Source of the DNA: Microbacterium endophyticum
Lineage (GTDB): Bacteria; Actinomycetota; Actinomycetes; Actinomycetales; Microbacteriaceae
Direction: 5' to 3'
DNA: 64,000 nucleotides
NCBI RefSeq assembly: GCF_011047135.1
Contig: NZ_CP049255.1
Span: 2,790,001 to 2,854,000 of the forward strand
Numbering within the stretch: the stretch's first letter is position 1; every line of letters starts with the position of its first letter. The notes beneath the pieces were generated by a model. The model was not told the DNA's origin and ran no database searches. It was given only the letters and a program-made list of their open reading frames with translations. A program made the position numbers and the translations under genes. Below, piece by piece: positions 10,029 through 24,935 of this stretch.

Positions 10029-10589
10029 GTGAGCGGCAGTAGCGTGAGCGGTATGACGATTGCATCCAGCGCTTCAGTCCTCAGCATCCCCGGCCACGTT
10101 CCGGCGATCGATCCGACGGCTTTCGTGGCAGATGGCGCGCGGGTGGTCGGTGCGGTCACGCTCGCTGAACAAGCGAGCGTTTGGTACAACGCAGTGCTGC
10201 GTGCCGATAGTGCTGCGATAACTATCGGGGCTGGAAGTAACGTGCAAGACAACGTGTCGATTCACGTCGACAGCGGGCACGCGGCATCCGTGGGCGAAAA
10301 CGTCTCGATCGGGCACAACGCCGTCGTGCATGGCTGCACGATCGAAGACGGATGCCTCATCGGAATGGGCAGCGTGATTCTCTCGGGCGCGGTTATCGGC
10401 GCAGGAAGCCTGGTCGCCGGGGGAGCTGTGGTGCTAGAAGGCATGGTGGTTCCACCCGGTTCGCTTGTCGCTGGTGTGCCCGCGAAGGTGCGACGTGAAC
10501 TCAGCGACGAAGAGCGTGACGGTATCTTGAAAAACGCAGCGGCGTATGTCGCTCACAGCGCTGAGCACCGCGGCGCACTACCCGCCTGA
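10029..10589 (+). CDS. Gamma-carbonic anhydrase family protein
   Basis: Left-handed beta-helix (hexapeptide-repeat) protein of 186 aa, family of gamma carbonic anhydrases that hydrate CO2 with a metal held by three histidines. Candidate ligands are seen in VSIHVD, IGHNAV and VVHGC. The conserved C-terminal helix follows LVAGVPAKVRREL. GTG 10029 is chosen because a TANNNT hexamer lies exactly six bases upstream. ATG 10053 is the alternative and would remove eight residues outside the fold. It is divergent from dps with a shared regulatory region. Many members have no proven anhydrase activity. Confidence 0.87.
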   Translation: MSGSSVSGMTIASSASVLSIPGHVPAIDPTAFVADGARVVGAVTLAEQASVWYNAVLRADSAAITIGAGSNVQDNVSIHVDSGHAASVGENVSIGHNAVVHGCTIEDGCLIGMGSVILSGAVIGAGSLVAGGAVVLEGMVVPPGSLVAGVPAKVRRELSDEERDGILKNAAAYVAHSAEHRGALPA

Positions 10590-10613
10590 CGCTCACGCCT
10601 GGAGCAACAAAGC

Positions 10614-10679
10614 GTCGGAGAATCACACTCTGTCGGAGGCTATTTGCGAGAAACCTCCGACTGAGCGCGATACTCCGAC
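10614..10679. repeat. 66-bp four-box palindrome, copy 1
   Basis: GTCGGA, 12 nt, GTCGGA, 18 nt, TCCGAC, 12 nt, TCCGAC. The arms pair over 24 positions with four mismatches, and outer GC/GC and inner GG/CC pairs extend the stem. It lies 25 bases after the carbonic anhydrase stop and before the convergent alcohol dehydrogenase gene. Same family as the copies at 22135, 23604 and 24616. Confidence 0.85.
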
Positions 10680-10710
10680 GCAGTGAATCTGCGACGCGGT
10701 GAAGTGAGGC

Positions 10711-11757
10711 TTAGGCCTGAGGGACGATCACGGCGCGTGCCGAAAGCGTGCCGGCCTGCATCCGTTTGTAAGCCTCGGGAGCCTCGTCTAGCGTGAAGCG
10801 TTCGATGTCCGGAGTGATCTGACCGGCTTGATACATCGCGACAACTTCGTGCAAGTCGGCGATGGTGCCCCAGTAGGTATTGGTAACGACAGCCTGGTAG
10901 GGATTGGTGAAGAACGTCCACGTAGCTTCGCCGCCTGCGATGCCGACAACGGTGAGGCGACCGCCCTGAGCGAGCACAGACTGGCCGAGCTTGATTGTGG
11001 GCGAGACGCCGACGAAATCGAACACGGCGTCAACGCCGCGGCCGCCGGTGAGCTCTCGAATGCGCGCTGCTTGGTCTTCGCCTGCACCCACAGTGACGGC
11101 TCCGCGCTCGGAGGCGCGTGCCATGGCGTCTTCTTTTGCATCTGTCGCGATGACTGTCGCGCAGGTGAGTGCCTGCAAGATCTGGACGGCAATCTGGCCG
11201 AGTCCGCCGAGGCCGATGACCAGAGCTGTCGCGCCACCCTTCGCGAGGACGGGCTGGGCGAGCGTTATGGCGTGATAGGGCGTCAGCGCTGCATCCGCCA
11301 GCGGGGCCGCGGTCACAGGATCGGAATCACCGAGAGCGACAAGGTTGCGGCTTGGGACGACGACATACTCAGCCATTCCACCGTCGCGACCAAGGCCGAC
11401 TCCGAGGTAGGGCTGTGTTGCGACATTCTGACAGTAGGTGTCTTGGCCGCGCGTGCACGGTACACAGTGACCACAACCGATGGGGCCGTAGACGAGGTAT
11501 GCGTCGCCTTTTTGAAAACCTGAAACACCCGGACCTACTTCTTCGACCCATCCGGAGTTTTCGTGACCGAGCGTGAATGGTGCGCTCATCCCACCTGGTG
11601 ATGTCTCAGCGGTGAAGTCCGAAAAGATCGACACGTCGGAGTGACAAGCCCCGGCACCCGCGACCTTCAGGAGCACCTCACCAGGGCCTGGGGCAGGTCG
11701 TGGCACGTCTTCGAGAGTCGGAAAGGTCTGCCAAGCAGTAAATCGCATTGCACGCAT
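10711..11757 (-). CDS. Zinc-dependent NAD(P) alcohol dehydrogenase
   Basis: Medium-chain dehydrogenase of 348 aa. The catalytic zinc site is formed by Cys38-His39 (GACHSD) and the GHENSG motif. The structural zinc site is the four-cysteine lobe CGHCVPCTRGQDTYC. The Rossmann motif is VIGLGGLGQIAVQ. The overall pattern resembles the NAD-dependent Adh group active on primary or aromatic alcohols. ATG 11757 and ATG 11748 are both possible starts. It is transcribed alone, towards the carbonic anhydrase gene, with palindrome copy 1 in the convergent gap. Confidence 0.92.
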   Translation of the reverse strand: MRAMRFTAWQTFPTLEDVPRPAPGPGEVLLKVAGAGACHSDVSIFSDFTAETSPGGMSAPFTLGHENSGWVEEVGPGVSGFQKGDAYLVYGPIGCGHCVPCTRGQDTYCQNVATQPYLGVGLGRDGGMAEYVVVPSRNLVALGDSDPVTAAPLADAALTPYHAITLAQPVLAKGGATALVIGLGGLGQIAVQILQALTCATVIATDAKEDAMARASERGAVTVGAGEDQAARIRELTGGRGVDAVFDFVGVSPTIKLGQSVLAQGGRLTVVGIAGGEATWTFFTNPYQAVVTNTYWGTIADLHEVVAMYQAGQITPDIERFTLDEAPEAYKRMQAGTLSARAVIVPQA

Positions 11758-11889
11758 GCTCGAATACCCACTTTCGTGGCTCTTACGCGCACGAGCATCG
11801 CACGTTCCGAAGCTTCAATCAGGCTACGCCCGCGTGACTGGTCTAACGACGTGACTGGTATAACGACTTTCGTCAGTATGACGAGTATG

Positions 11890-11963
11890 TGGAGGGGCTG
11901 ACGAGAATCGAACTCGCATCATCTGTTTGGAAGACAGAGGCTTTACCACTAAGCTACAGCCCC
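11890..11963 (-). tRNA. tRNA-Gly (TCC)
   Basis: The minus strand folds as a cloverleaf: acceptor arms GGGGCTG / CAGCCCC, anticodon loop CTTCCAA (anticodon TCC) and T-loop TTCGATT. An encoded CCA lies at 11890-11892. It reads GGA/GGG glycine codons. Confidence 0.96.
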
Positions 11964-12004
11964 ACGTTCGGCACAATTCCGCCGAAGTGTGAATATTGAA
12001 TTGA

Positions 12005-12023
12005 CGGGGAATGTTGTTCCCCG
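12005..12023. other. Short hairpin between the two tRNA genes
   Basis: CGGGGAA / TTCCCCG with a 5-base loop. It lies upstream of both tRNA genes (which are divergent); no U tract follows. The rest of 11964-12161 shows no gene. Confidence 0.35.
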
Positions 12024-12161
12024 CGCCCCATCGGGCACTGGACAATCGTAGTACACATCTGAGTGACTTCAGTGCGCGGTGTGAGCCGGGTCTAGATTCT
12101 GGCGTCCGTCAGCTAGAGTAATGGGGGCCGATTTTCGTGCACGTTCGCGTGCGCGCCCGTC

Positions 12162-12235
12162 CGGGGCGTAGCTCAGCTTGGTAGAGCGCCCGCTTTGGGA
12201 GCGGGAGGCCGCAGGTTCGAATCCTGTCGCCCCGA
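12162..12235 (+). tRNA. tRNA-Pro (TGG)
   Basis: Acceptor arms CGGGGCG / CGCCCCG, anticodon stem CCCGC / GCGGG with loop TTTGGGA (anticodon TGG), T-loop TTCGAAT. CCA is not encoded. It lies just upstream of tig, a frequent arrangement in Actinobacteria. Confidence 0.96.
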
Positions 12236-12303
12236 CACAATAAGGCCCCCAGACCTTCAGCCCACGGCATATGCGCGTGGAAATCAGAGGAGAACGAACA
12301 GGT

Positions 12304-13674
12304 ATGGTCACCAGCACCGTCGAGACACTCACGCCTACACGTGTGAAGCTCCACATCACGGTCACCCCCGACGAGCTCAAGCCGAGCATCGCCCACGCAT
12401 ATGAGCACATCGCTCAGGACATCCAGGTTCCCGGATTCCGCAAGGGTAAGGTTCCCGCCCCGATCATTGACCAGCGCGTCGGTCGTGGCGCTGTCATCGA
12501 GCACGCCGTCAGCGAGGGCCTTGATACGTTCTACCGCGAGGCCGTTTCGGCTCACGAGATCCGCGTGATCGGTCGCCCGAGCGCGGACATCGTTGAATGG
12601 CCCAACGACAAGGACTTCTCCGGAGACCTCCTCGTTACCGTTGAGGTGGATGTGCGTCCCGAGTTCGATCTGCCAGCGTTCGAAGGTACAACCATCACCG
12701 TTGACGCCGTCGAGACCGATGACGCAGCGATCGACAAGGAACTCGACGAACTTCGCGCGCGTTTCGGCACCCTTGTCACGGTGGACCGCCCCGCAGCAAC
12801 CGGCGACTTCGTTGAACTTGACCTCGTAGCCACGATCGACGGCAACGAAATCGATCGCGCCGAAGGCGTGTCGTATGAAGTCGGCTCCGGTGAACTTCTG
12901 CAGGGCATCGACGAAGCGCTTGACTCGCTCACCGCTGGCGAAGACACGACGTTCCGCTCGAAGCTCGTTGGTGGCGACCACGCTGGCGAAGAGGCAGAAG
13001 TTGCTGTCTCGGTTAAAGCTGTCAAGGAGCGCGAGCTTCCGGAAGCAGACGACGACTTTGCTCAGATCTCCAGCGAATTCGACACGCTCGAAGAGCTTCG
13101 CGGCTCGCTCGCGGACCGCGTTGCGCAGCAGTCGACCTTCTCGCAGGGTTCAGCAGCTCGCGACAAGCTCGTCGAGGCGCTGCTCGAACAGGTCGAGATC
13201 CCCGTTCCGCCGCAGCTGGTCGAAGACGAGGTGCACACCCACCTCGAAGGCGAAAATCGTCTCGAAGATGACGAGCACCGCGCAGAGGTCACCGAAGCCA
13301 GCGAGAAGCAGTTCCGCACGCAGGTTCTTCTCGACAAGATCGCCGAAGAAAACAACGTTCAGGTCTCGCAGGATGAGCTGACGCAGTACCTCATCCAGTC
13401 CGCAGCTCAATACGGAATGGCTCCGCAGGACTTCGTCAACGCGCTTCAGGAGAACAACCAGCTTCCCGCTCTCATGGGCGAAGTAGCTCGCAACAAGGCT
13501 CTTGCTGTAGCTCTCGGTCGCGTCAACGTTGTCGACACAAACGGCAACGCTGTCGACCTCTCGGGTTTCATCGCCATCGAAGATGAAGCAGAAGCTGAAG
13601 AAGAGACCGTCGACGAGGCTGAAGAGATCACCGCGGCCGCAGCAGACGCTGAGGGCGAAGAAGACACCAAGTAG
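12304..13674 (+). CDS. tig: Trigger factor
   Basis: Ribosome-associated chaperone and peptidyl-prolyl isomerase (456 aa) that meets nascent chains at the exit tunnel. The ribosome-binding signature [19 protein letters not shown] is at about residues 43-61. The FKBP-like PPIase domain ([15 protein letters not shown] and following) is central, and a helical C-domain follows. The extreme C-terminus is an acidic tail ([16 protein letters not shown]). ATG 12304 is used; an AGGAG lies ten bases upstream. A strong hairpin follows the stop. It heads the tig-clpP1-clpP2-clpX proteostasis block. Confidence 0.97.
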
Positions 13675-13686
13675 AAGATCTACAGA

Positions 13687-13720
13687 CGAAGGTGCGGATG
13701 CTGCGGCATCCGCACCTTCG
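13687..13720 (+). terminator. Terminator after tig
   Basis: Perfect 15-bp stem CGAAGGTGCGGATGC / GCATCCGCACCTTCG with a 4-base loop (TGCG), followed by TCGTTCG. Very stable but with a poor U tract. Confidence 0.75.
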
Positions 13721-13740
13721 TCGTTCGAGGAGACGGCGAC

Positions 13741-14238
13741 ATGAGCCTGAGCTGGCAAGAGCGCATCGATGCGGTGTGGGCCGACACGACGTTGAGTGAT
13801 GCGGAACGCATCGCCGCTATCGACGATGTTGCCGCAGAGCGCGGTGAATCCGATCCAGTTGCCCTTTTTGAACGCGGGGGAGCCCGGGATTCGGCTGGCA
13901 TCGAATACGAAGCCGTCGCCCTCTACCGACGTGCGCTCGAGGCAGGCCTGCCCGAACTGCAGCGCGTGCAAGCGTCGGTCCAACTTGCGAGCACTCTCCG
14001 CAACCTCGGTGAAGTTTCCGAAAGCATCCGGCTTCTGCAAGCTGAGCGAGCGAACGCCCATCGTCACGGTCTTGCGGACGCAGTGGAGGCGTTCTACGCA
14101 CTGGCACTCGCGAGCGACGATCGGCCCGTCGAGGCTGCCGCGGTTGCGCTTGCGGCTCTCGCCCCACATCTTCCGCAATATTCACGTTCTGTGCGCGCAT
14201 ACGCTGATGAGCTCTCATCGCTGCGTTCCGAGAATTAG
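13741..14238 (+). CDS. Tetratricopeptide-repeat protein
   Basis: A soluble 165-aa alpha-helical protein with no signal peptide. Repeated A/L-rich helices with TPR-like spacing (EYEAVALYRRALEAGL, LQRVQASVQLASTLRNLGE, ESIRLLQAERANAHRHG) match the TPR_5 type. It probably mediates protein-protein contacts; no catalytic motif is seen. A GAGGAG lies about nine bases before the ATG. It is placed between tig and clpP1, so a role in chaperone or protease function is possible, but this rests on position only. Confidence 0.8.
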   Translation: MSLSWQERIDAVWADTTLSDAERIAAIDDVAAERGESDPVALFERGGARDSAGIEYEAVALYRRALEAGLPELQRVQASVQLASTLRNLGEVSESIRLLQAERANAHRHGLADAVEAFYALALASDDRPVEAAAVALAALAPHLPQYSRSVRAYADELSSLRSEN

Positions 14239-14258
14239 CCAACGTGGCCACGACACCT

Positions 14259-14276
14259 CGTATGCCGACGGCGAAC
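14259..14276. promoter_or_regulatory. ClgR-like operator upstream of clpP1
   Basis: CGTATGCCGACGGCGAAC matches the published ClgR consensus (WNNWCGCY, NANR, GCGWWS) except at two positions. It lies about 28 bases before the -10 TAGATT and 65 bases before the clpP1 ATG, where an activator would bind. ClgR activates clpP1P2 in other Actinobacteria. Confidence 0.5.
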
Positions 14277-14303
14277 ACGGGCTGAGCCTTCTTTTTGCGC
14301 CGG

Positions 14304-14309
14304 TAGATT
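14304..14309 (+). promoter_or_regulatory. -10 element of the clpP1 promoter (candidate)
   Basis: TAGATT, 31 bases before the clpP1 ATG; the -35 region is poor, in keeping with an activator-dependent promoter. Confidence 0.4.
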
Positions 14310-14340
14310 CAATGTCACGTCCACGAAATCAGGAGTGAAC

Positions 14341-14925
14341 ATGGCCGAACCTCTCATGGCAACCAGCGTCTTTGACAGGCTGCTGAAGGATCGCATCATC
14401 TGGCTCGGTTCAGAGGTGCGCGACGAGAACGCAAACGAAATCTGCGCCAAGATCTTGCTTCTGGCAGCTGAGGACGCGCAGAAAGACATCTACCTTTACA
14501 TCAATTCGCCCGGTGGTTCGATCACCGCGGGAATGGCGATCTACGACACGATGCAATTCGTCCCGAACGACATCGTCACCGTAGGAATCGGCATGGCGGC
14601 ATCGATGGGTCAGCTTCTGCTGACCAGCGGAACCAAGGGCAAGCGCTACATCACACCGAACGCCCGCGTGCTGTTGCACCAGCCTCACGGCGGATTCGGT
14701 GGCACGTCCAGTGACATTCAGACTCAGGCGCAGCTCATTCTCGATATGAAGCGCCGCCTCGCTGAGATCACCGCTGGCCAGACCGGAAAGAGCGTCGAGC
14801 AGATCAATGCTGACGGTGACCGTGACCGCTGGTTCGGGGCCGAAGAGGCACTTGAGTACGGCTTCGTCGACCACATTCGCGAACACGCCACCGACGTCAC
14901 TGGCGGCGGCGGTACCAAAAACTGA
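14341..14925 (+). CDS. clpP1: ATP-dependent Clp protease proteolytic subunit 1
   Basis: Serine peptidase subunit (194 aa) of the actinobacterial two-ring ClpP1P2 protease. The catalytic triad is Ser88 (GMAASMGQ), His113 (LLHQPHGG) and Asp162 ([11 protein letters not shown]). INSPGGS marks the oxyanion region. ATG 14341 has a GGAG five bases upstream; GTG 14335 is an alternative. clpP2 follows after 29 bases in the same operon. A ClgR-like site lies upstream. In mycobacteria ClpP1 and ClpP2 are both needed for activity and work with ClpX or ClpC1. Confidence 0.97.
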
Positions 14926-14954
14926 GTATCGAAGGCGAAAGAGAGATAATCCGC

Positions 14955-15620
14955 ATGAACACCCCCTCCTTCGGCTACCCGCTGGGCCTTCAGATGCCCA
15001 GCAGCCGCTACGTACTGCCGCAGTTCGAAGAGCGAACGGCATACGGCTACAAGCGCCAGGACCCGTACAACAAGCTCTTCGAAGACCGCGTCATCTTCCT
15101 CGGTGTGCAGGTAGACGACGCATCGGCGGATGACGTTATGGCGCAGCTCCTGGTTCTCGAAAGCCAGGATCCAGACCGTGACATCATCATGTACATCAAC
15201 TCACCCGGTGGATCCTTCACCGCGATGACAGCGATCTACGACACGATGCAGTACGTCTCGCCGCAGATTCAGACTGTCGTTTTGGGCCAGGCAGCATCCG
15301 CTGCATCTGTTCTGCTCGCTGCTGGTGCACCGGGCAAGCGGCTCGCGCTACCGAACGCTCGTATCCTGATCCACCAGCCCGCTGTCGGCGAAGCGGGCCA
15401 GGGGCAGGCTTCGGATATCGAGATTCAGGCCGCGGAAATTCTGCGCATGCGTACCTGGCTTGAGGCGACGCTGTCGAAGCACTCGAACCGCACTCAGGAA
15501 CAGGTCAACCGCGATATCGATCGTGACAACATCCTCTCAGCGGAGCAAGCCGTCGAGTATGGCCTCGTTGACCAGGTGCTGACCACGCGCAAGCGCACAC
15601 CTGCTGCGATCACATCCTGA
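14955..15620 (+). CDS. clpP2: ATP-dependent Clp protease proteolytic subunit 2
   Basis: Second ClpP ring subunit (221 aa). The triad is Ser115 (GQAASAASVL), His140 (ILIHQPAV) and Asp191 (DRDNILSAEQA). It has the longer N-terminal segment (about 35 residues, with YVLPQFEERTAYG) typical of actinobacterial ClpP2; part of this is a propeptide in mycobacteria. It is cotranscribed with clpP1 and followed by a textbook intrinsic terminator. Confidence 0.97.
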   Translation: MNTPSFGYPLGLQMPSSRYVLPQFEERTAYGYKRQDPYNKLFEDRVIFLGVQVDDASADDVMAQLLVLESQDPDRDIIMYINSPGGSFTAMTAIYDTMQYVSPQIQTVVLGQAASAASVLLAAGAPGKRLALPNARILIHQPAVGEAGQGQASDIEIQAAEILRMRTWLEATLSKHSNRTQEQVNRDIDRDNILSAEQAVEYGLVDQVLTTRKRTPAAITS

Positions 15621-15632
15621 GCATGATTTCTC

Positions 15633-15674
15633 GCGACGGCGCCCTGGCTTCGCATCAGGGCGCCGTCGCTTTTT
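15633..15674 (+). terminator. Intrinsic terminator of clpP1-clpP2
   Basis: 14-bp perfect stem GCGACGGCGCCCTG / CAGGGCGCCGTCGC with a 9-base loop, followed directly by TTTTT. Confidence 0.95.
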
Positions 15675-15750
15675 GTCTCGGACCGCGCACGTAGGACAAG
15701 CCATTCGCGGCGAGCGCCCGACAATACCCACGGATGTCGGTTGCAGCAGC

Positions 15751-15756
15751 TAGGCT
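15751..15756 (+). promoter_or_regulatory. -10 element upstream of clpX (candidate)
   Basis: TAGGCT, 38 bases before the clpX ATG and downstream of the clpP terminator, so clpX has its own promoter. Confidence 0.4.
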
Positions 15757-15794
15757 CGAAAACCACGGTGGAAGCCGCCTTAAGGAGGAATGAA

Positions 15795-17063
15795 ATGGCA
15801 CGAATCGGTGAAAGCGCCGACCTTTTCAAGTGTTCCTTCTGTGGCAAAAGCCAAAAGCAGGTGCAGCAACTGATCGCCGGCCCGGGTGTGTACATCTGCG
15901 ACGAATGCGTCGAGTTGTGTAATGAAATCATCGAAGAGCGCATGGCAGAGCAGGGCTCTGGCGTCGTTTCCGATTTTGAACTCCCCAAGCCGCGCGAGAT
16001 CTTCGACTTTCTCGAGGAGTATGTCGTCGGTCAAAAAGATGCGAAGCGTGCGCTGTCTGTGGCTGTCTACAACCACTACAAGCGTGTGCAGTCGCACACG
16101 ACGATCACTTCCGCCGAGCAGCGGGCCGATGAAGTGGAGATCGCGAAGAGCAACATTTTGCTCCTCGGTCCTACCGGGTGTGGCAAGACCTATCTCGCGC
16201 AGACGCTCGCGAAGCGACTGAACGTTCCGTTCGCCGTCGCCGATGCAACGGCCCTGACTGAAGCAGGCTACGTCGGCGAAGATGTCGAGAACATTCTTCT
16301 CAAGCTGCTCCAGGCTGCGGACTTCGACACAAAGCGTGCCGAGACGGGCATCATCTACATTGACGAGGTCGATAAGGTTGCTCGCAAGGCCGAGAACCCT
16401 TCGATCACGCGCGATGTTTCGGGTGAGGGCGTGCAGCAGGCGTTGCTGAAGATCCTCGAGGGCACGGTCGCTTCGGTTCCACCTCAGGGTGGCCGTAAGC
16501 ACCCCCACCAAGAGTTCATTCAGATCGACACGACCAACGTGCTGTTCATCGTCGCTGGAGCATTTGCCGGTCTCGAAGACATCATCTCTTCGCGCGTCGG
16601 CCGGCACGGTGTCGGGTTCGGTGCTCAGCTGCAAGACAAAGACGCGCAGGCGAATTTGTTCGGCGAGGTGCTTCCAGAGGATCTGCACAAATTCGGCCTC
16701 ATCCCGGAGTTCATCGGGCGCCTTCCGGTCGTCGCCTCCGTCGCGCCCCTCGACCAGTCAGCTTTGATGGAGATTCTCACGACTCCGCGCAATGCGCTCG
16801 TCAAGCAGTATCAGCGCATGTTCGAGATCGATGGTGTCGAGCTAGAGTTCGAAAGCGGTGCACTAGAGGCGATCGCTGACCTCGCCGTATTGCGAAAGAC
16901 GGGCGCACGCGGGTTGCGAGCCATCCTGGAAGACGTTCTCGGGCCAATCATGTTCGAGATTCCGTCTGCCGATGACGTCGACAAGGTCATCATCACTCGC
17001 GAGTCGGTCGAGACGAACGCCGCTCCCACGTTCGTTCTACAGCAAAAGCGCAAGAGCGCGTAA
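15795..17063 (+). CDS. clpX: ATP-dependent Clp protease ATP-binding subunit ClpX
   Basis: AAA+ unfoldase (422 aa) that feeds tagged substrates into ClpP1P2. The N-terminal zinc-binding domain has CSFC and CDEC. Walker A is GPTGCGKT, Walker [10 protein letters not shown], the pore/RKH region GGRKHPHQ, and the ClpP-contacting loop GVGFGAQ. ATG 15795 is selected by a perfect AAGGAGG six bases upstream; the frame is open further upstream without such a signal. It is separated from clpP2 by a terminator and carries its own -10 TAGGCT. Confidence 0.97.
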
Positions 17064-17101
17064 CTCGATCACACCGGTAGTGCCAGCGTGATCGACAACG
17101 C

Positions 17102-19156
17102 TTAGTCGTGCAGGCCGCGGCGTTTGAGGAGCGGCGCGATATCGGCATCACGTCCGCGAAAATCTCTATAAACCGCCAGAGGATTCTGCGATCCACCCAC
17201 GCCCAGGATGCGCGACCGGAATCGATCCCCGTTCGCGCGCGTTAGCCCGGCGTTGTCACGGAACCATTCGACAGTGTCGGCATCAAGCACTTCGCTCCAA
17301 ATGTAGGAGTAATAGCCCGCACTGTAGCCGCCAGAAAAGACGTGCGCGAAATAAGTCGACGAGTATCGGGGCGGGATGACCGGGTTAAGAAGCCCGATGT
17401 CTGCAAGTGCTTCGGCTTCGAAAGCTGCAACGTCGGTGATAGCGGCAGCATCCGATGTGCTCAACGAGTGCCATGCTTGATCGATCCAGGCCGCGGCCAA
17501 GTACTCGCTCGTCGCAAAGCCCTCGTTGAAGGCGACCGAGCTGGTGAGCGCCGCAACGGTCTCATCGGGTAGTTGTGCGCCGGTTTCGACGTGTCGTGCA
17601 TAGTTGCGCAGTACTTCGGGCCAGTAGATCCACATCTCATTGACCTGACTGGGAAACTCGACAAAGTCGCGAAAGACGTTCGTTCCACCAAATGAAGGAA
17701 ATGTGACGCGCGCAAAGAGCCCATGCAGTGCGTGGCCGAACTCGTGGAAGAGTGTCGTCACTTCGTCGAGCGTCAAAAGCGTCGGTTCGCCGCTCGAGGG
17801 CTTCGATACGTTGAGGTTGTTGACCACGATCGGATGATCGTCACTCAGTTGCGACTGCACGGCTATGGAATTCATCCATGCTCCGCCCCGCTTAGAGTCA
17901 CGCGTGTAGAGATCCAAAATGTACAAACCCAACGGGGTGCCGTCGTGCTCGTGCACTTCGAAGACACGCGCATCAGGGTGGTAGGCCTTCACATCCGCAC
18001 GTTCTGTGAAGGTGACACCGAAGAGAGCCGACGCCGCGAAGAACACGCCGTCGACAAGCACACGATCTGCCTCGAACCAGGGACGAAGTGCGGCCGTATC
18101 GAGGTCGTATTGCGCGGCTCGCACTTTTTCAGTGACATACGCCCAGTCAGACGCTTCCAGAGGATCGCGTGACTCGCTGCTCTCATCGCTGACATGCTGC
18201 AGTGCACGCTGTTCTTTGGCGGCGTTTCGGGCCGCGGGGACCGCAAGCCGCCGCAGCATGTCAGCGACGGCTTCCGGCGACCCAGCAGTTTCGCCGGATG
18301 TGATGAAAGCGGCGTGAGAGGCAAAGCCGAGGAGCTCTGCGCGTTCGGCACGCAGCCGCACGATTTCGAGGAGTACTCGGTCGTTAGGGTGGGCGCCACC
18401 GGCGGCGCCGCGCGCGCGTGACGCGTGCATCAGCTTCGCACGTGTGGCTCGCGAGGTCAGTGATGACAGAAGCGGATGCCCCGTAAATAATCGCAGCGTG
18501 ATCAGATACCCGTCGAGCCCGCGTTCGCGCGCAGCCGCCGCCGCGGATTGCAACTCGCCCGGGGTGAGCCCTTCGAGTTCCGCGTCATCGGTGAGGTGAA
18601 GGGCGAGATCGTTCGTGTCGGCTAGCAGATTCTTTTCGAATGCTGTCGTGAGTACGGAAAGACGTTGATTGAGGGCGCGAAGACGACCCTTTGCCTCATC
18701 GTCAAGTCCGGCGCCGGCGCGCGTCATGGCCGTAAATCGTCGTTCGGCGAGGTAACGCTGGTCGGCATCTGGAAGGGCAGCGCTCTGATTATGAATCGCA
18801 ACAACGCGTTCGTAAAGCGCACTGTCGAGCAGGATTCCGTCGAAGTGTTCTGACATCAGTGGCGCAAGAGTTTCGTCCACCTGCTGAATGGACTCTGTCG
18901 CATCAGCGGAAGAAACTGTGTAGAACGTGCGCGATAGTCGCCCGAGCAGCCTCCCGCTCTCTTCCCACGCGACGAGAGTGTTTTCGAACGTGGCAGGTTC
19001 GCTAGAAGCAGCGATGGCAGCGATTTCGGCGTTGTGCTCAGCAAAAGCGATCTCGAACGCGGGCAGGTAATGCCCGGGCTCGATGAGCTCGTAGGGCGGC
19101 AGGCCGTAGGGCAGATCGCTGGGCGTGAGGAGTGGATTGGCCGCGGCATCCGTCAT
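17102..19156 (-). CDS. M3 family oligopeptidase (Dcp / oligopeptidase A-like)
   Basis: Zinc metallopeptidase of 684 aa cleaving short peptides in the cytosol. HEFGH (residues 471-475) is the zinc site and FNEGFATSEYLAA follows with the M3 C-terminal pattern. GGYSAGYYSYIWSEVLDAD is the conserved substrate-binding loop of the M3A subfamily, shared with Dcp (dipeptidyl carboxypeptidase). The start ATG 19156 has no Shine-Dalgarno but has TACGCT exactly six bases upstream, pointing to a leaderless mRNA. It follows valS and the 82-aa protein on the same strand, so read-through from valS is also possible. Confidence 0.92.
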   Translation of the reverse strand: MTDAAANPLLTPSDLPYGLPPYELIEPGHYLPAFEIAFAEHNAEIAAIAASSEPATFENTLVAWEESGRLLGRLSRTFYTVSSADATESIQQVDETLAPLMSEHFDGILLDSALYERVVAIHNQSAALPDADQRYLAERRFTAMTRAGAGLDDEAKGRLRALNQRLSVLTTAFEKNLLADTNDLALHLTDDAELEGLTPGELQSAAAAARERGLDGYLITLRLFTGHPLLSSLTSRATRAKLMHASRARGAAGGAHPNDRVLLEIVRLRAERAELLGFASHAAFITSGETAGSPEAVADMLRRLAVPAARNAAKEQRALQHVSDESSESRDPLEASDWAYVTEKVRAAQYDLDTAALRPWFEADRVLVDGVFFAASALFGVTFTERADVKAYHPDARVFEVHEHDGTPLGLYILDLYTRDSKRGGAWMNSIAVQSQLSDDHPIVVNNLNVSKPSSGEPTLLTLDEVTTLFHEFGHALHGLFARVTFPSFGGTNVFRDFVEFPSQVNEMWIYWPEVLRNYARHVETGAQLPDETVAALTSSVAFNEGFATSEYLAAAWIDQAWHSLSTSDAAAITDVAAFEAEALADIGLLNPVIPPRYSSTYFAHVFSGGYSAGYYSYIWSEVLDADTVEWFRDNAGLTRANGDRFRSRILGVGGSQNPLAVYRDFRGRDADIAPLLKRRGLHD

Positions 19157-19162
19157 GATTCG

Positions 19163-19168
19163 AGCGTA
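19163..19168 (-). promoter_or_regulatory. -10 element of a probable leaderless promoter (M3 peptidase)
   Basis: TACGCT, six bases, then ATG 19156. Confidence 0.5.
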
Positions 19169-19187
19169 ACGGCGGCCGGTGCTCGCG

Positions 19188-19436
19188 TTATGCGAATTCG
19201 TCGTCGACGTCGTGATGCACGACTGCCTGTCCGTCGGCGTCAAGAGTGACGATGATGCCGGTTTCCAGTTCAGCGATCGGGCGGCCCTCTAAAAATGTGA
19301 GTGTCCACCTAGGTGTCGCAGCGGCGAGCCCGTCGGAGATCATCGACTCTTCGACGCGAGCTATCTCTTTGTGAAGTGCAGCGGGCACGGCGGCAGGCGG
19401 CTGGGCACCTACGCTCCACCGGGTTCCGAGTTGCAT
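19188..19436 (-). CDS. Small hypothetical protein coupled to valS
   Basis: An 82-aa soluble protein, MQLGTRWSVGAQPPAAVP at the N-terminus and an acidic end (HHDVDDEFA). Central segment RWTLTFLEGRPIAELETGIIVTLD looks like beta strands. I do not recognise a family with certainty; small proteins of this kind are seen next to valS in relatives. The ATG follows the valS TGA by one base and an AGGAGG lies inside the valS end, so translation is coupled. No cysteine, signal peptide or membrane segment is present. Confidence 0.75.
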   Translation of the reverse strand: MQLGTRWSVGAQPPAAVPAALHKEIARVEESMISDGLAAATPRWTLTFLEGRPIAELETGIIVTLDADGQAVVHHDVDDEFA

Positions 19437-19437
19437 A

Positions 19438-22017
19438 TCAGGCCTCCTGCGGTGCGAGTTCGATGTGGGTGACGGCGGTTGTCTCACCCGAAACGTAATC
19501 GATTTCTGCGATCCGACCCACTGCCTTGAGGTCGTCTTCGGCGAGTCGGAGGGCCGCGAGTGCGACAGGCGCGCCGGCAATTGTCATCCGTGCGACTGCC
19601 GTCTTCTGGGATGCCTTTGCCTCCGTTTTCGCGCGACGGATGCCGATGAGCGCTTCCCCGACGATCGACAGTACGGTCGTGTCTCCCCCTCGTGTCTGGG
19701 CTTCGGGCCACGGGGAAGTGTGGATAGATCCGTCGTTGAACCACGACCAGGCCTCTTCAGTAGCGAACGAGAGCACGGGCGCGAGCAACCGCAGTAACGA
19801 CGAAAGCGCGAGACGCAGCGCGAGAGCAGCTGATGCCTGTGCTTCGTGGCCCTGGTCGTATGCGCGCTCCTTCACGAGTTCGAGGTAGTCGTCGCAGAAT
19901 GTCCAGAAGAACGATTCGGTGATTTCCAGTGCGCGAGCGTGGTCGTAGTTCTCGAGTGCTGTTGTGGCATCCCGGATGACCGTGTCAAGATTCGCCAGCA
20001 TCGAAGCGTCTAGCGGGTGCGTCACTTCCGCACCGTCGGGAACTGGGAACGACAGCACGAACTTGGCAGCGTTCAAAACCTTGATCGCGAGGCGGCGACC
20101 GATCTTGATCTGTGTCGGGTTCTGCGGATCGAAAGCAGCGTCGGTTCCGAGTCGGCTAGATGCCGCCCAGTAGCGAACGGCATCCGATCCGTGCTTTTCC
20201 AGGATGTCGGCAGGCGTAACGACGTTACCCTTCGATTTCGACATCTTCTTGCGGTCCGGGTCGACGATGAAGCCCGAAATTGCCGCGTTCTTCCACGGTG
20301 TGCGGTTGTCTTCGAGCGCGCTTCGCAACATGGTCGAAAAGAGCCAGGTACGGATGATGTCTTGGCCCTGCGGGCGAAGATCGAACGGCGCGACCAGATT
20401 CCATAGTTCCGGGTCGCGCTCCCAGCCGCCGGCGAGCTGCGGAGTGAGTGATGACGTTGCCCACGTGTCGAAGATGTCGCGCTCGGCATCGAACCCGCCC
20501 GCGACACCGCGCTGGTTTTCGCTGTAGCCAGCAGGAACATCGGTGGTGGGGTCTACCGGGAGGAGCGACACGTCTGGCACGAGGACCCGCTCGTAGTCGC
20601 GCTCACCGTTCTCATCGAGCGCGTACCAGAGCGGAATCGGCACACCGAAGAAACGCTGGCGAGAAACGAGCCAGTCACCGGTGAGTCCGTTGGTCCAGTT
20701 TTCGTAGCGAACGCGCATGAACTCCGGATGCCACGCCACTTCGCGACCGAGGTTCACCAGCTTCTCGCGAAGTTCCGCATCGCGAGCGCCATTTCTCACG
20801 TACCACTGGCGGGTCGATACGATTTCGAGCGGTCGGTCACCCTTTTCGAAGAACTTGACGGCGTGTGCGAAGGGCTTTCCGACCTCCAGAAGTTCGCCCG
20901 ATTCGGTCAGCAGCTCGACGATGCGCTTCTTCGCGCTGAACACCGTCTTTCCAGCGATCTCTGCGTAATGCGTCTTCGCTGTTTCGCTGACGAGCGTTTC
21001 GGGCGCGTCGGCGACGATGCGTCCGTCTTTGCCGAGGATCGTACGGTTGGGGAGATCGAGTTCGCGCCACCAGATGATGTCGGTGACGTCACCGAACGTA
21101 CAGATCATCGCGATGCCTGAGCCCTTGTCTTTCTGCGCGAGCTGGTGCGCGAGTACTGGCACTTCAACATCGAATAGCGGGCTGCGAACTGTTGTACCGA
21201 ACAACGGCTGGTACCGCTCGTCATCCGGGTGCGCGACCAACGCGACGCACGCCGCGAGCAGTTCCGGGCGAGTTGTTTCGATTACGACGTCGCCGCTGCC
21301 ATCTGTCTTGTGGAAGGCGACGCGGTGGTAGGCAGCCTGTTGCTCGCGGTCTTCGAGCTCTGCCTGCGCGATAGCCGAGCGGAAGTCGACGTCCCAGAGC
21401 GTGGGCGCCATCGACTGGTATGCCTCGCCACGTTCGATGTTCTTGATGAATGCGAGCTGGCTGCTGCGTATCGTCTCATCGGAAATAGTGCGGTATGTCT
21501 GCGACCAATCGACGCTGAGGCCGAGGCTCCGCCACAGCTCTTCGAAGAACTTCTCATCTTCGACGGTGAGCTTTTCGCAGAGCTCGATGAAGTTGCGGCG
21601 ACTGATCGGCAACTGGTCCGCAGCTTTGCTGCTCTTGTTGTCGCCACCCTCGTAGGGCGGAACAAAGTCAGGTGTGTAGGGGAGCGAGGTATCACAACGC
21701 ACGCCGTAGTAGTTCTGCACGCGCCGCTCGGTGGGGAGACCGTTGTCGTCCCAACCCATCGGGTAGAACACGGTCTTGCCGCGCATCCGCTCGAAACGCA
21801 CCTTCACATCGGTGTGCGTGTAACTGAAGACGTGCCCGATGTGGAGGCTCCCCGATGCCGTCGGTGGGGGAGTATCGACACTGAATACTCCGGCACGGCC
21901 GACCTTCGACGCAGCGGCCCGATCAAACGCGTAGGTTGCGGCCGCCGACCACGCGGCATCCCACTTCTTTTCGAGTCCTTCGAGGGCGGGCTTGTCGGGG
22001 ATGATTGCTTCGGCCAC
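19438..22017 (-). CDS. valS: Valyl-tRNA synthetase
   Basis: Class I synthetase (859 aa) charging tRNA-Val. HIGH is at residues 59-62 and [10 protein letters not shown] in the second half. The TTRPELL editing-domain motif is present (ETTRPELLAACVALVAHPDDERY). Motifs such as DDNGLPTERRVQNYYGVRCD and the short C-terminus, without the long coiled coil of E. coli ValS, place it in the type 2 (archaeal-like) group common in Actinobacteria. Start GTG 22017 has a GAGGAG seven bases upstream. Palindrome copy 2 separates it from the upstream transporter gene. Confidence 0.96.
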   Translation of the reverse strand: MAEAIIPDKPALEGLEKKWDAAWSAAATYAFDRAAASKVGRAGVFSVDTPPPTASGSLHIGHVFSYTHTDVKVRFERMRGKTVFYPMGWDDNGLPTERRVQNYYGVRCDTSLPYTPDFVPPYEGGDNKSSKAADQLPISRRNFIELCEKLTVEDEKFFEELWRSLGLSVDWSQTYRTISDETIRSSQLAFIKNIERGEAYQSMAPTLWDVDFRSAIAQAELEDREQQAAYHRVAFHKTDGSGDVVIETTRPELLAACVALVAHPDDERYQPLFGTTVRSPLFDVEVPVLAHQLAQKDKGSGIAMICTFGDVTDIIWWRELDLPNRTILGKDGRIVADAPETLVSETAKTHYAEIAGKTVFSAKKRIVELLTESGELLEVGKPFAHAVKFFEKGDRPLEIVSTRQWYVRNGARDAELREKLVNLGREVAWHPEFMRVRYENWTNGLTGDWLVSRQRFFGVPIPLWYALDENGERDYERVLVPDVSLLPVDPTTDVPAGYSENQRGVAGGFDAERDIFDTWATSSLTPQLAGGWERDPELWNLVAPFDLRPQGQDIIRTWLFSTMLRSALEDNRTPWKNAAISGFIVDPDRKKMSKSKGNVVTPADILEKHGSDAVRYWAASSRLGTDAAFDPQNPTQIKIGRRLAIKVLNAAKFVLSFPVPDGAEVTHPLDASMLANLDTVIRDATTALENYDHARALEITESFFWTFCDDYLELVKERAYDQGHEAQASAALALRLALSSLLRLLAPVLSFATEEAWSWFNDGSIHTSPWPEAQTRGGDTTVLSIVGEALIGIRRAKTEAKASQKTAVARMTIAGAPVALAALRLAEDDLKAVGRIAEIDYVSGETTAVTHIELAPQEA

Positions 22018-22134
22018 GGGAGACTCCTCGGCGATATGTGCGGCACTGTGTGAGCGTGCCTGAATGTCGGAACTCCCCGATTCTAACGGCGCTAACGGCG
22101 CTCGCGTTCCCCGCGATCGCGCTCACCACGTTCG

Positions 22135-22200
22135 GTCGGAGAATCGCACTGCGTCGGAAGGTTCTTTGCGAAGGGATCCGACGGAATGCGATTCTCCGAC
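22135..22200. repeat. 66-bp four-box palindrome, copy 2
   Basis: GTCGGA, 12 nt, GTCGGA, 18 nt, TCCGAC, 12 nt, TCCGAC. The outer halves GTCGGAGAATCGCA / TGCGATTCTCCGAC pair perfectly, and TTCG / CGAA extends the stem. It ends five bases before the end of the MHS transporter stop codon (22206) and lies upstream of valS. Confidence 0.9.
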
Positions 22201-22205
22201 CGAAC

Positions 22206-23522
22206 TCAGACCCGCTCTTGGATGATGTCGACCTTCTTCATGCGCGATGCAGCCCACGCGGACACCAGGGTGATGGCCGACATCACGCCCAGAACAATTC
22301 CAGGGTGCCACCAGGCGAAGTCGGTGGACTTACCAAGTTCGAGCGTGATGCTCGGAACGAAGCCACTCGCGGTCGCGGCGATCGCATAGGCGAACGAAAG
22401 CGCTGAGTAGCGGAAGTGCGCGGGGAAGAGGTCCGCCATGAGCCCGCCGAGGCCCGCCCAAGCCATCGTTGGCAGGATGCCGCCGATGATCATCGTGCTG
22501 ACCAAGATCGGGAAGGTTGCAAACTGCAGGAGATAGTACATCGGGAACGCGATGATGAGCGTGCCGAGCGAACCGAACATCACGAGACGCGCAGAGCCGA
22601 TGCGCGTCGCCCATACGCCGAACAATGGGATTGTCACGAGCTGGAGGAGCGCTCCGATAGTGGTCGCAACGAGCAGGCTCTGATACGTAAAGCCGAGTTC
22701 GGTCACGCCGTAGTTGATCGTGTAGGTGTTCATTAGTGCGTACGATCCAATGCCGAGAAGCGCGGCACCGATAGCGACGGCCATTGCTATTGGACTGCTC
22801 TTGAACATCGTCAAGAACGGCACGCGATCGCGGCGCTTTTCTTCCTTGACTCCCTCGAACACCGGAGTTTCAGTGATGTTGAGCCGCAGATACAGCGAAA
22901 CTGCGAGCAGCGGGAAAGCGACGAGGAAAGGGATGCGCCAGCCCCATGCCGCCAACTCCTCGGAGGGAAGAACGGTGGTCATGATGATGAACAGCGTGGC
23001 CGACAGGATCGATCCCACCGGTGACCCGAGCTGGGGTATTGCCGCGTAGAAAGCGCGCTTGAGCGGGCTCGCGTGCTCTGTGGCGATCAAAATCGATCCG
23101 CCCCACTCTCCTCCGAGCGAGATTCCCTGTGCAATACGGAGGATGACGAGGAGGACTGCGCCCAGCCACCCTGCCTGTGCGTAGGTGGGCAAAGCGCCGA
23201 TCAGGCCGGTTGCCACCCCCATGATTCCGATTGTCCAGAGAAGTGTTGCGCGCCTTCCAAGGCGGTCGCCCATGTACCCGAAGATCAAGGCGCCGATGGG
23301 ACGCACAACGAACGCGATCGCGATGGTGAGGAACGCAAGCGTTGTGCCACCGATTTCGCCGAGCGGATCGAAGAAGAGCGGCCCGACAAAGAATGCTGCG
23401 AAATAGGCGTAGACGTAGAAGTCAAACGATTCGAGTGAGGTGCCGACCATCGATGCCCACGCCACACGGCGAGTGGGCTTCGTCGACGCGGACGAGGGAG
23501 GAAGTGTCGCAGCAGAAGTCAC
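22206..23522 (-). CDS. MFS transporter, metabolite:H+ symporter (MHS/ProP-like) family
   Basis: Twelve-helix inner-membrane carrier (438 aa from GTG 23522). Family markers: FDFYVYAYFAAFF after helix 1 start, GYMGDRLGRRATLL (MFS motif A), GISLGGEWGGSILIATEH, GWRIPF and the cytosolic loop with ITETPVFEGVKEEKRR. MHS carriers take up organic acids, betaines or similar with protons; the substrate here is unknown. The frame is open to a TTG at 23573, also a possible start. The gene is bracketed by palindrome copies 2 and 3. Confidence 0.88.
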   Translation of the reverse strand: MTSAATLPPSSASTKPTRRVAWASMVGTSLESFDFYVYAYFAAFFVGPLFFDPLGEIGGTTLAFLTIAIAFVVRPIGALIFGYMGDRLGRRATLLWTIGIMGVATGLIGALPTYAQAGWLGAVLLVILRIAQGISLGGEWGGSILIATEHASPLKRAFYAAIPQLGSPVGSILSATLFIIMTTVLPSEELAAWGWRIPFLVAFPLLAVSLYLRLNITETPVFEGVKEEKRRDRVPFLTMFKSSPIAMAVAIGAALLGIGSYALMNTYTINYGVTELGFTYQSLLVATTIGALLQLVTIPLFGVWATRIGSARLVMFGSLGTLIIAFPMYYLLQFATFPILVSTMIIGGILPTMAWAGLGGLMADLFPAHFRYSALSFAYAIAATASGFVPSITLELGKSTDFAWWHPGIVLGVMSAITLVSAWAASRMKKVDIIQERV

Positions 23523-23603
23523 GAGAGACCATCTTGCCACTGCTTTCGCGCGTTGTTGCACGCAGGCCAACAATTACCTCAACCATTTCGGTCGAGATGT
23601 TGG

Positions 23604-23669
23604 GGCGGAGAATCGCGCTCGGTCGGATGTAAGCCGTGTAGGAAGCCCGACGTATCGCGATTCTCCGAC
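23604..23669. repeat. 66-bp four-box palindrome, copy 3
   Basis: Same geometry (6-12-6-18-6-12-6) with GGCGGA as first box and CCCGAC as third. The arms share GGAGAATCGCG / CGCGATTCTCC. It lies in the divergent gap between the transporter and the DUF559 gene, so here it cannot be a simple transcription terminator. Confidence 0.85.
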
Positions 23670-23770
23670 CGGATCCGATGTGTTCTCCACAACTCGCGCT
23701 CAGCGACAGAACTTCAGGGATGCTGTGTGCATCGTCGTTGAAGACGGGTGGTCGACGCATCCTCATTTCC

Positions 23771-24595
23771 ATGGATCTCCTCGATGCCGTCGAATCATCA
23801 AGTGGAATCGCACGCGTTGCGACGCTGGAGCGACGGGGTGTGAGGCGCGCTCGCATTGCCGCAGCTCTCGACAGTGGGACTTTGATCCGACCTCGCCGGG
23901 GATGGGTTGCGCTCCCGGATGCTGACATCGAACTCGTCGCCGCGGCTAGGGCGGGAGTCGTGCTCTCGTGCATTACCGCGGCGCGTCGACGTTCGCTGTG
24001 GGTGCTCGAAGAAACCGAGTACCACGTTGCTGCGGCGCCGCACGCTCGCGGCGGCAAGCGTCCAGGCGCGCATGTGCACTGGGCTCAACCCGTTGTGCCG
24101 CGGCATCCAGATGCCTTGGTCGACGGTGTCGAGAACATGCTTGCGATCGTCTCGGCATGTCAACCTTTCGAGCCAGCACTCGCTGTGTGGGAATCGGCGC
24201 TTCGGGTCGGGCTCGTGACCAAGACAGCGTTGGAGATGCTGCCCTTCCATCATCGCGCCCGGGAGATCCTTGCCGTCGCGTCGCCGTACTCGGATTCCGG
24301 CTTGGAGAGTTTCATCGTCCCGAGGCTGAAGTGGATGCGGGTGCGGATAATTCCACAGGCTTGGTTACTTGGGCATCGGGTCGACTTTCTTATTGGCGAC
24401 CGACTCATCCTGCAGATTGATGGCGGGCACCACATGGGCGCTCAGCGCTTAAGCGACAACGCCCACGACGCGCTGCTGATGATCAACGGATTTCATGTGA
24501 TCCGAGTCGGGTATTCGCAGATCGTGGGGGACTGGGCGCGCGTGCAAGATGTCATCATGCGGGCCGTTGCCCAGGGTCTGCACCTCGCGAAGTGA
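23771..24595 (+). CDS. AbiEi-like / DUF559 domain protein
   Basis: A 274-aa two-part protein. The N-terminal 70 residues (ARVATLERRGVRRARIAAALDSGTLIRPRRG) resemble the winged helix of AbiEi-type antitoxins. The C-terminal part (DSGLESF near residue 180, then VDFLIGDRLILQIDGGHH) fits DUF559, a Vsr/PD-(D/E)xK-like nuclease fold, with Glu and Asp residues spaced as in that fold. Such proteins are frequent in Actinobacteria as solitary genes of unknown role. There is no partner toxin. No Shine-Dalgarno is visible; ATG 23771 is chosen because it opens the conserved region. It is flanked by palindrome copies 3 and 4. Confidence 0.78.
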   Translation: MDLLDAVESSSGIARVATLERRGVRRARIAAALDSGTLIRPRRGWVALPDADIELVAAARAGVVLSCITAARRRSLWVLEETEYHVAAAPHARGGKRPGAHVHWAQPVVPRHPDALVDGVENMLAIVSACQPFEPALAVWESALRVGLVTKTALEMLPFHHRAREILAVASPYSDSGLESFIVPRLKWMRVRIIPQAWLLGHRVDFLIGDRLILQIDGGHHMGAQRLSDNAHDALLMINGFHVIRVGYSQIVGDWARVQDVIMRAVAQGLHLAK

Positions 24596-24615
24596 GATGC
24601 CCTTGTGCGACTTAC

Positions 24616-24681
24616 GTCGGAGAATCGCACTCATTCGGAAGCTATCGCCGGAATAGCTCCGACATCGTGCGATTCTCCGAC
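24616..24681. repeat. 66-bp four-box palindrome, copy 4
   Basis: Best-preserved copy. The outer 15 positions (GTCGGAGAATCGCAC / GTGCGATTCTCCGAC) pair perfectly, the stem extends by TAC / GTA outside and AGCTAT / ATAGCT around the loop. Geometry is again 6-12-6-18-6-12-6. It starts 20 bases after the DUF559 stop and precedes the ileS leader. Confidence 0.9.
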
Positions 24682-24777
24682 GTAGCTGCGCTCAGCACTA
24701 CCGCCCCGCGGGATGCGGAACGCACAAGCAACTGCGGCGAGCGCACGCGCGGTGTAACGAGTAGAATCAATGAACAC

Positions 24778-24935
24778 GCTTTGATCCGGATATCACCGGG
24801 GAGCACTCGGAAGAGCGGCTTATGCCAGGTAGAACCGAGCGGGTCAGGCCCGTTATAGCCGCAGTGAGAGAGGTCGGATGCCTCGGCAACCGACAACGCA
24901 GGGTGGTATCGCGGTCCTTCCCAGGGTCGTCCCGG
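24778..24935 (+). promoter_or_regulatory. T-box riboswitch of ileS (ultrashort stem I, translational type)
   Basis: The leader senses uncharged tRNA-Ile. A very short stem I (TCCGG ATATCA CCGG) exposes the isoleucine specifier ATC at 24792-24794. The T-box AGGGTGGTATCGCG is at 24900-24913, with TGGT pairing to the ACCA end of uncharged tRNA. No terminator with a U tract follows; a GC-rich element (CCCAGGG, CCCGGC) precedes the start codon. This is the arrangement described for actinobacterial ileS leaders, where the ribosome-binding site rather than termination is controlled. Confidence 0.9.

Follow-up and report, generated by a model that had tools for sequence, protein, structure and literature searches.

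What keeps a family of small palindromes at one length and one internal spacing in a bacterial chromosome, with a loop that is free in sequence? The question is raised by a 64,000-nucleotide (nt) stretch of Microbacterium endophyticum (contig NZ_CP049255.1, positions 2,790,001 to 2,854,000; hereafter the window), in which a preliminary description had reported four palindromes of 66 base pairs (bp), each built from two GTCGGA boxes 12 nt apart, an 18-nt loop and two inverted boxes (TCCGAC). All four exist as described (Table 1), and the four-box pattern did not occur in 100 shuffles of the window. The last two flank a gene, here called the driver, whose product joins an AbiEi-like DNA-binding region to a DUF559 nuclease domain. 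Related genes in the genus are commonly bracketed by such palindromes, and the box belongs with the gene. Judging from the sequences, the driver protein very probably binds the palindromes as specific targets; that they are the binding and probably the cleavage sites of their own nuclease, maintained in a homing-like way, is the combined reading that we favour with some reserve. The results suggest a selfish or regulatory DNA system that had not been recognised before, with a target code that is readable from sequence.

Palindromes and the gene they bracket

The M. endophyticum chromosome (G000 in our labels) is a single complete contig of 2,916,114 bp. A search for GTCGGA-N12-GTCGGA-N18-TCCGAC-N12-TCCGAC with up to three mismatches found 12 copies in it, all of 66 bp, four of which are in the window, and a length-tolerant covariance model again arrived at 12 places; of the 26 strand matches that it scored, 24 reached E<=1e-4. 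Single arms (up to three mismatches) gave 26 matches, namely the 24 arms of the 12 copies and two weak sites with three mismatches; there are no clear orphan arms. The family is not limited to four copies of chance similarity, nor is its spacing free. Six copies are clustered at 806–855 kilobases (kb) and four at 2.80–2.81 megabases, and the remaining two are single.

Translated flanks of 105 distinct elements, 1.5 kb on each side, were compared between genomes. Among the matches listed, the commonest recurring neighbour was the open reading frame (ORF) between the copies at 23604 and 24616, found in 12 genomes and, as a 96-residue match, in a thirteenth (G613); the genomes include a clade with 67-bp elements (G408, G490, G751 and G615). 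Other neighbours, ileS included, recurred in fewer genomes among these matches. The ORF begins at 23678, and the gene start in Table 1 was deduced from homologs, which align from about residue 32 of this longer ORF; one database copy of the protein starts later and has 251 residues. The product of the longer ORF has matches in 342 of 361 Microbacterium genomes (E<=1e-15), often as several paralogs.

Seventy loci from this match list (the 30 best and 40 others) were scanned for the palindrome architecture within 380 bp of the gene, with a required minimum of 15 of 18 motif letters and 15 paired arm positions. Palindromes were recognized on both flanks at 43 of the 70 loci, on one flank at 14 and on neither at 13; the corresponding numbers were 22, 5 and 3 for the best 30, and 21, 9 and 10 for the other 40. 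A qualifying palindrome was seen in only one of 110 control windows (1/58 for ileS, 0/52 for subtilase homologs) and in none of 140 shuffled ones. Where orientation can be resolved, the copies on the two sides of a gene mostly repeat each other directly: loops with a similarity of 0.7 or more were found in direct orientation at 18 of 51 loci and in inverted orientation at 8 (null 3%), several of the latter loops being palindromic themselves. Local copies with equal loops, among the matches listed, also lie in direct orientation.

The geometry had been called invariant. This holds for the 66-bp length across the M. endophyticum chromosome, but it is too strict for related families. A set of 100 qualifying palindromes next to related genes has a box period of 18 bp in both arms in 88 cases, of 19 bp in both arms in 9 and of mixed length in 3; their loops measure 18 nt in 56, 17 in 39, 19 in 3 and 16 in 2. 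The box sequence varies between genes and between species.

At the 51 loci with two palindromes (>=14/18), the upstream and downstream box triples agree at 0.817, as against 0.428 for shuffled loci (maximum 0.554 in 5000) and 0.466 for different genes of one genome (22 comparisons). Thus, the box follows the gene, not the species. Solitary palindromes (solos) match in the same way: 69 of them, in 15 genomes, resemble the drivers of their own genome at 0.812, compared with 0.469 when genomes are shuffled (maximum 0.747 in 1000). On a tree of 50 drivers built without the hairpin columns described below, the box classes need 20 changes, the minimum being 8 and the shuffled mean 29.9.

Two other neighbours were tried as partners and rejected. 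A subtilase gene that lies between two M. endophyticum copies prompted the idea of a gene cassette; its homologs occur in 14 of 361 genomes (E<=1e-20), and none of their 52 flanking windows holds a qualifying palindrome. Of 30 ileS loci scanned, copies lie upstream of ileS in M. endophyticum alone; at two others (L188 and L192) there are weak model matches on the other side of the ileS match. At least 15 of the 70 driver genes are within 10 kb of an ileS match (a hand count from coordinates), and the boxes at this position include GTC, TCC, TGC, TGA, GCA, CGA, TTC and GCC; the place recurs and the code differs.

Two distant paralogs of the driver in M. endophyticum (36% and 30%) have no qualifying palindrome, and a tblastn search for driver remnants at the other copies of this chromosome (E<=1) gave short weak matches only (best E 0.06). 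The protein has no match in phages at E<=1e-5, and its plasmid matches are two from Tsukamurella, at 29–30% identity. NCBIfam assigns it to no family; PADLOC gave three AbiEi matches to its N-terminal part (best E 1.3e-5). The ortholog in the close relative G457 runs for 274 residues without a stop from its probable start, and a reported in-frame TGA should fall in the 5' extension.

Table 1. Palindromes and candidate driver gene in the window (positions counted from its first nucleotide)
Feature	Position	Strand	Remarks
66-bp palindrome, solo, in convergent gap	10614..10679	.	0 box mismatches; common to G457
66-bp palindrome, solo, between valS and MFS gene (Pfam)	22135..22200	.	0 box mismatches; common to G457
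66-bp palindrome upstream of nuclease gene	23604..23669	.	2 box mismatches; upstream flank, locus L202
Candidate driver, 274-residue protein: AbiEi-like DNA-binding region (1–171) and Vsr/EDxHD-type DUF559 nuclease domain (~175–270)	23771..24595	+	Pfam PF13338, PF04480
66-bp palindrome downstream of nuclease gene, in ileS leader	24616..24681	.	1 box mismatch; downstream flank, locus L202

Conservation of boxes, arms and loops

The preliminary description took fixed length with a variable loop as a sign of selection on spacing, whether by a binding protein or in a structured or processed RNA. The 11 copies common to M. endophyticum and G457 support the view that boxes and spacing are under selection and the loop is unconstrained: changed positions number 3 of 132 in the outer boxes and 10 of 132 in the inner boxes, as against 39 of 264 in the mid-arms, 26 of 198 in the loops and 406 of 2029 in the aligned flanks (outer boxes versus mid-arms plus loops, Fisher p ~4e-5). 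All 11 of these expected places are filled and no copy has changed in length, the scan that found the G457 copies being one of fixed length; the twelfth is a single-copy locus that matches the subtilase pair of M. endophyticum. Across the genus, mid-arms and box vary by species and the anatomy is constant.

An RNA hairpin, structured in itself or serving an RNA-processing enzyme, would agree with the stable RNA folds of all four window copies (-31.8 to -41.0 kcal/mol, z -3.8 to -8.0) and with the strong covariation of paired positions across species, which at first resembled pairing. However, low folding energies are expected of any palindrome, and within genomes the two arms of a copy resemble each other no more than arms taken from separate copies do. 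In M. endophyticum the mid-arms of a copy are no closer than shuffled partners (0.750 vs 0.746, p 0.49), and the same shuffle gave p values of 0.50 in G419, 1.0 in G490, 0.59 in G613 and 0.18 in G667. The orthologs likewise lend no support to pairing: of 99 Watson–Crick mid-arm pairs in M. endophyticum, 84 are unchanged in G457, 14 are broken and only one was kept by a double change. Furthermore, copies occur in every gap type, and the sole Rfam matches in the window (gathering score) are three tRNAs away from the palindromes. We regard an RNA role as extremely improbable. Since each arm tracks the genome-wide consensus independently, the arms behave as protein sites, in line with the protein-binding alternative of the preliminary description.

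That description had also doubted a plain terminator role because the sites differ. Such a role is indeed unlikely, as the copies occupy convergent, tandem and divergent gaps in our own gene prediction (which looks unreliable in G419, where the strand conflicts with an ileS match and no claim depends on it), and a search for intrinsic terminators (GC-rich hairpin followed by a T-run) at 10550–24900 gave nine hits, none overlapping a palindrome.

Some copies show further peculiarities. In G490 (L119–L124) the mid-arms are less alike within a copy than between copies (0.722 vs 0.791), which would suit a directional element with left and right arms of two kinds. Two M. endophyticum copies (C1:844615 and 854615; L019 4615 and 14615) are exactly 10,000 bp apart and agree in the loop and in 60 bp or more of the right flank; their counterparts in G457, 10,002 bp apart, share a changed arm, which looks like concerted evolution. 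In the right flanks of many elements (for example L066, L070 and L081) the mid-arm is often repeated beyond the outer box, as judged by eye, so that the 18–19-bp unit may extend outward into an incomplete third repeat, which would make the true site longer than 66 bp.

The predicted driver protein and its possible action

The AlphaFold2 model of the driver, based on 57 sequences, has a mean predicted local distance difference test score of 91.6 and a predicted template modelling score of 0.75. It contains the N-terminal winged helix and second domain of the AbiEi fold, and the best fold match of its DUF559 domain is the homing endonuclease I-Bth0305I, in keeping with a Vsr-like nuclease fold. 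When four box classes (45 loci) were compared with the protein columns by mutual information, residues 96, 94, 93, 97, 89 and 95 ranked top. These belong to the tip (89–97) of a predicted beta-hairpin between strands 84–88 and 100–104, where mean confidence drops to 72. R or H stands at position 94 in all 13 GGA-box proteins and in 2 of 37 others, and R, H or K at position 96 in all 14 YGA-box proteins and in 12 of 36 others. In the nuclease motif, D217, H221 and D229 are present in 51 of 51 palindrome-linked drivers and D205 in 50.

We propose that the AbiEi-like region of one subunit would read one 24-bp arm (box NNNGGA, 12 nt, box NNNGGA), and that two subunits on the two inverted arms would set their Vsr/EDxHD-type nuclease domains over the unconstrained centre of 16–19 bp. 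The site would be an operator and probably a cleavage site, and gene and sites would form a single genetic unit, with a copy on either side of the gene, the two mostly in direct orientation. The upstream copy could mediate autoregulation; the downstream copy and the solos would need another reason, for which cleavage or nicking followed by repair is proposed. Dispersed solos might be maintained, corrected or occasionally spread through break repair or site recombination, as in homing and in REPIN/RAYT systems. Nuclease action with homing-like maintenance is, as a separate claim from sequence, put forward tentatively and falls somewhat short of probable. A fuller scenario may be sketched, although we find it rather doubtful: a homing-endonuclease-like AbiEi reader and EDxHD/Vsr cutter of its own 66-bp palindromes would lead the life of a repeat family without transposase or RNA, break repair would keep gene and targets together, convert the targets in concert and seed rare copies, and the tip 89–97 would have been switched often among paralogs, giving a library of protein–box pairs. 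The idea of a mobile element, set aside in the preliminary description, returns in another form, because the copies accompany a candidate driver gene.

Binding might instead serve regulation alone, the driver being an AbiEi-like autorepressor with an inactive nuclease domain, the palindromes mere operators and the solos its regulon. AbiEi antitoxins do autoregulate via 23-bp inverted repeats, according to PMC7319586; moreover, one copy of our family lies upstream of the driver and one in the ileS leader, and Q replaces E at residue 215 in 51 of 51 drivers. In contrast, most loci have a second copy downstream of the gene, solos occur in convergent gaps as well, the remaining residues of the nuclease motif are invariant, and copy number differs widely between species. 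We consider a purely regulatory network unlikely.

Several observations weigh against the combined reading of binding, cleavage and homing-like maintenance. Q215 stands where the solved relatives 3hrl and 3r3p have an acidic E, and the change may have altered or abolished catalysis. Movement of the palindromes must be rare, because 11 sites are common to M. endophyticum and G457, and inspection of the palindrome flanks by eye revealed no target-site duplication. The 13 of 70 driver loci without a qualifying palindrome under the strict rule also count here. So do the solos that match their drivers poorly (<0.7), with 8 in G696, 3 in G106, 2 in G667 (second family) and one each in G488, G750, G575, G463 and G164, genomes in which only some paralogs were sampled and the solos were collected with a GTC-leaning model. 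Finally, the residue–box counts are not corrected for phylogeny, and independent pairs on well-supported branches number one for GGA with R/H94 and three for YGA with R/H/K96; none contradicts the link, some show no difference, and significance is out of reach of the sign tests. In the other DUF559 proteins examined, E occupies the position of residue 215, and Q-x-D-G could mark the palindrome-linked subfamily.

A subtilase gene and one palindrome (C1:827151-829192; L018 7151-9192) are present in M. endophyticum and absent in G457. The gene lies between copies at C1:827151 and 829127, and the single copy of G457 has hybrid flanks, the left of one (18/20) and the right of the other (16/20). Either gene and palindrome were gained, or they were lost by recombination between the copies. 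Exchange at the site would be expected to leave direct repeats and a hybrid-flank locus such as these, but ordinary homologous recombination is another possible source of both.

Distribution and comparison with known systems

In 84,980 species genomes the exact four-box pattern occurs in 14 stretches, of which nine are from Microbacterium (five M. lacus, three M. halimionae and one SS28), four from Microbacteriaceae and one from an Actinomycetes metagenome-assembled genome; none was found in viral contigs. The covariance model, made from 31 copies, had matches (E<=1e-3) in 212 of 366 congeneric genomes. This figure is a minimum, since scoring took in 14 candidates from each genome and the model is biased to the GTC box. 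Eight chosen genomes, with 150 candidates scored, gave 14 to 70 strand matches (E<=0.01), which would correspond to about 7–35 copies, provided that each is matched on both strands. At the family level the model had matches (E<=1e-4) in 9 of 199 genomes, three from Microbacterium and one from each of six other genera. Among these, L193 and L198 show the complete anatomy by eye, and L196 adjoins a 41%-identical relative of the nuclease gene with a palindrome on either side. Of 89 genomes, 40 contain the generic pattern GGAGAT-N12-GGA-N18-TCC-N12-ATCTCC (up to one mismatch) and none contains its reversed control; M. endophyticum is outside the 40 because its arms read GGAGAA.

The closest parallel is the REPIN/RAYT system described in PMC3116915, in which a single-copy enzyme gene lies next to palindromes of its own, non-coding pairs of inverted arms are dispersed, and different drivers within one genome have different families. 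The present family likewise has an enzyme gene beside its palindromes and dispersed inverted pairs, 12 in M. endophyticum, two of which bracket the driver. However, the driver is an AbiEi-DUF559 protein and RAYT is a Y1 tyrosine transposase, and the arms have two boxes 18–19 bp apart, whereas REPs are hairpins with a GTAG tag. A search for the RAYT gene (Y1_Tnp, PF01797) gave no match in M. endophyticum and matches in 5 of 14 control genomes; with this defining transposase absent, membership was rejected for this genome. REPIN/RAYT-like logic with an unrelated enzyme would be the best reading of the likeness.

A miniature inverted-repeat transposable element, moved by an unrelated transposase and having caught the nuclease gene by chance, would account for dispersed copies in variable number and for local duplicates, but not for the same bracketed gene family with matching boxes across many species. 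M. endophyticum has no Y1 transposase (among transposases PF01797 alone was searched) and no arm pairs at transposon distance. We disfavour this explanation as very improbable. By eye, the flanks have no short direct repeat in common.

The driver model resembles the EDxHD/Vsr-like homing endonuclease I-Bth0305I in its Vsr-like fold, and differs in that the gene is bracketed by its presumed site, not inserted in it, and has Q at the aligned E; nor was an intron seen, although no test for one was made. From the AbiEi antitoxins of the AbiE type IV toxin–antitoxin system it differs in the fused nuclease domain, the dispersed copies and a spacer of 18 bp instead of 3. No AbiEii (DUF1814) toxin gene was found among its neighbours in a scan of the window (MFS and ileS by Pfam). 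Small extragenic palindromes are also known as GTAG- and CGTC-tagged REPs, the latter having no known dedicated transposase in the available part of PMC3733652. These are 20–40 bp long with tagged ends and occur in other phyla, and the four-box anatomy is not described in that part.

With the terms used, we found no open-access paper that ties DUF559/AbiEi proteins to dispersed palindromes. The link of one subfamily to a palindrome family gives these proteins, which are widespread in Microbacterium, a testable target, and it adds an interspersed repeat family with a driver unrelated to RAYTs. With dozens of natural protein–box pairs, the code of DNA recognition might be readable. Why REPIN populations persist, a question raised in PMC8049555, could be put to an independent system in Microbacterium.

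Three further arrangements were noted outside M. endophyticum. In G640 (L085) and in G079 (L198), the latter of another genus, one and the same gene (74.5% identity over 428 residues) has a solo palindrome as its neighbour, with a different box in each genome. G696 has three tandem palindromes 127 bp apart (L132 6388, 6515 and 6642), and G667 has a tandem repeat of about 855 bp (L134 2282-3291) that bears two palindrome families, of the GTCGGA and CGCGGA types.

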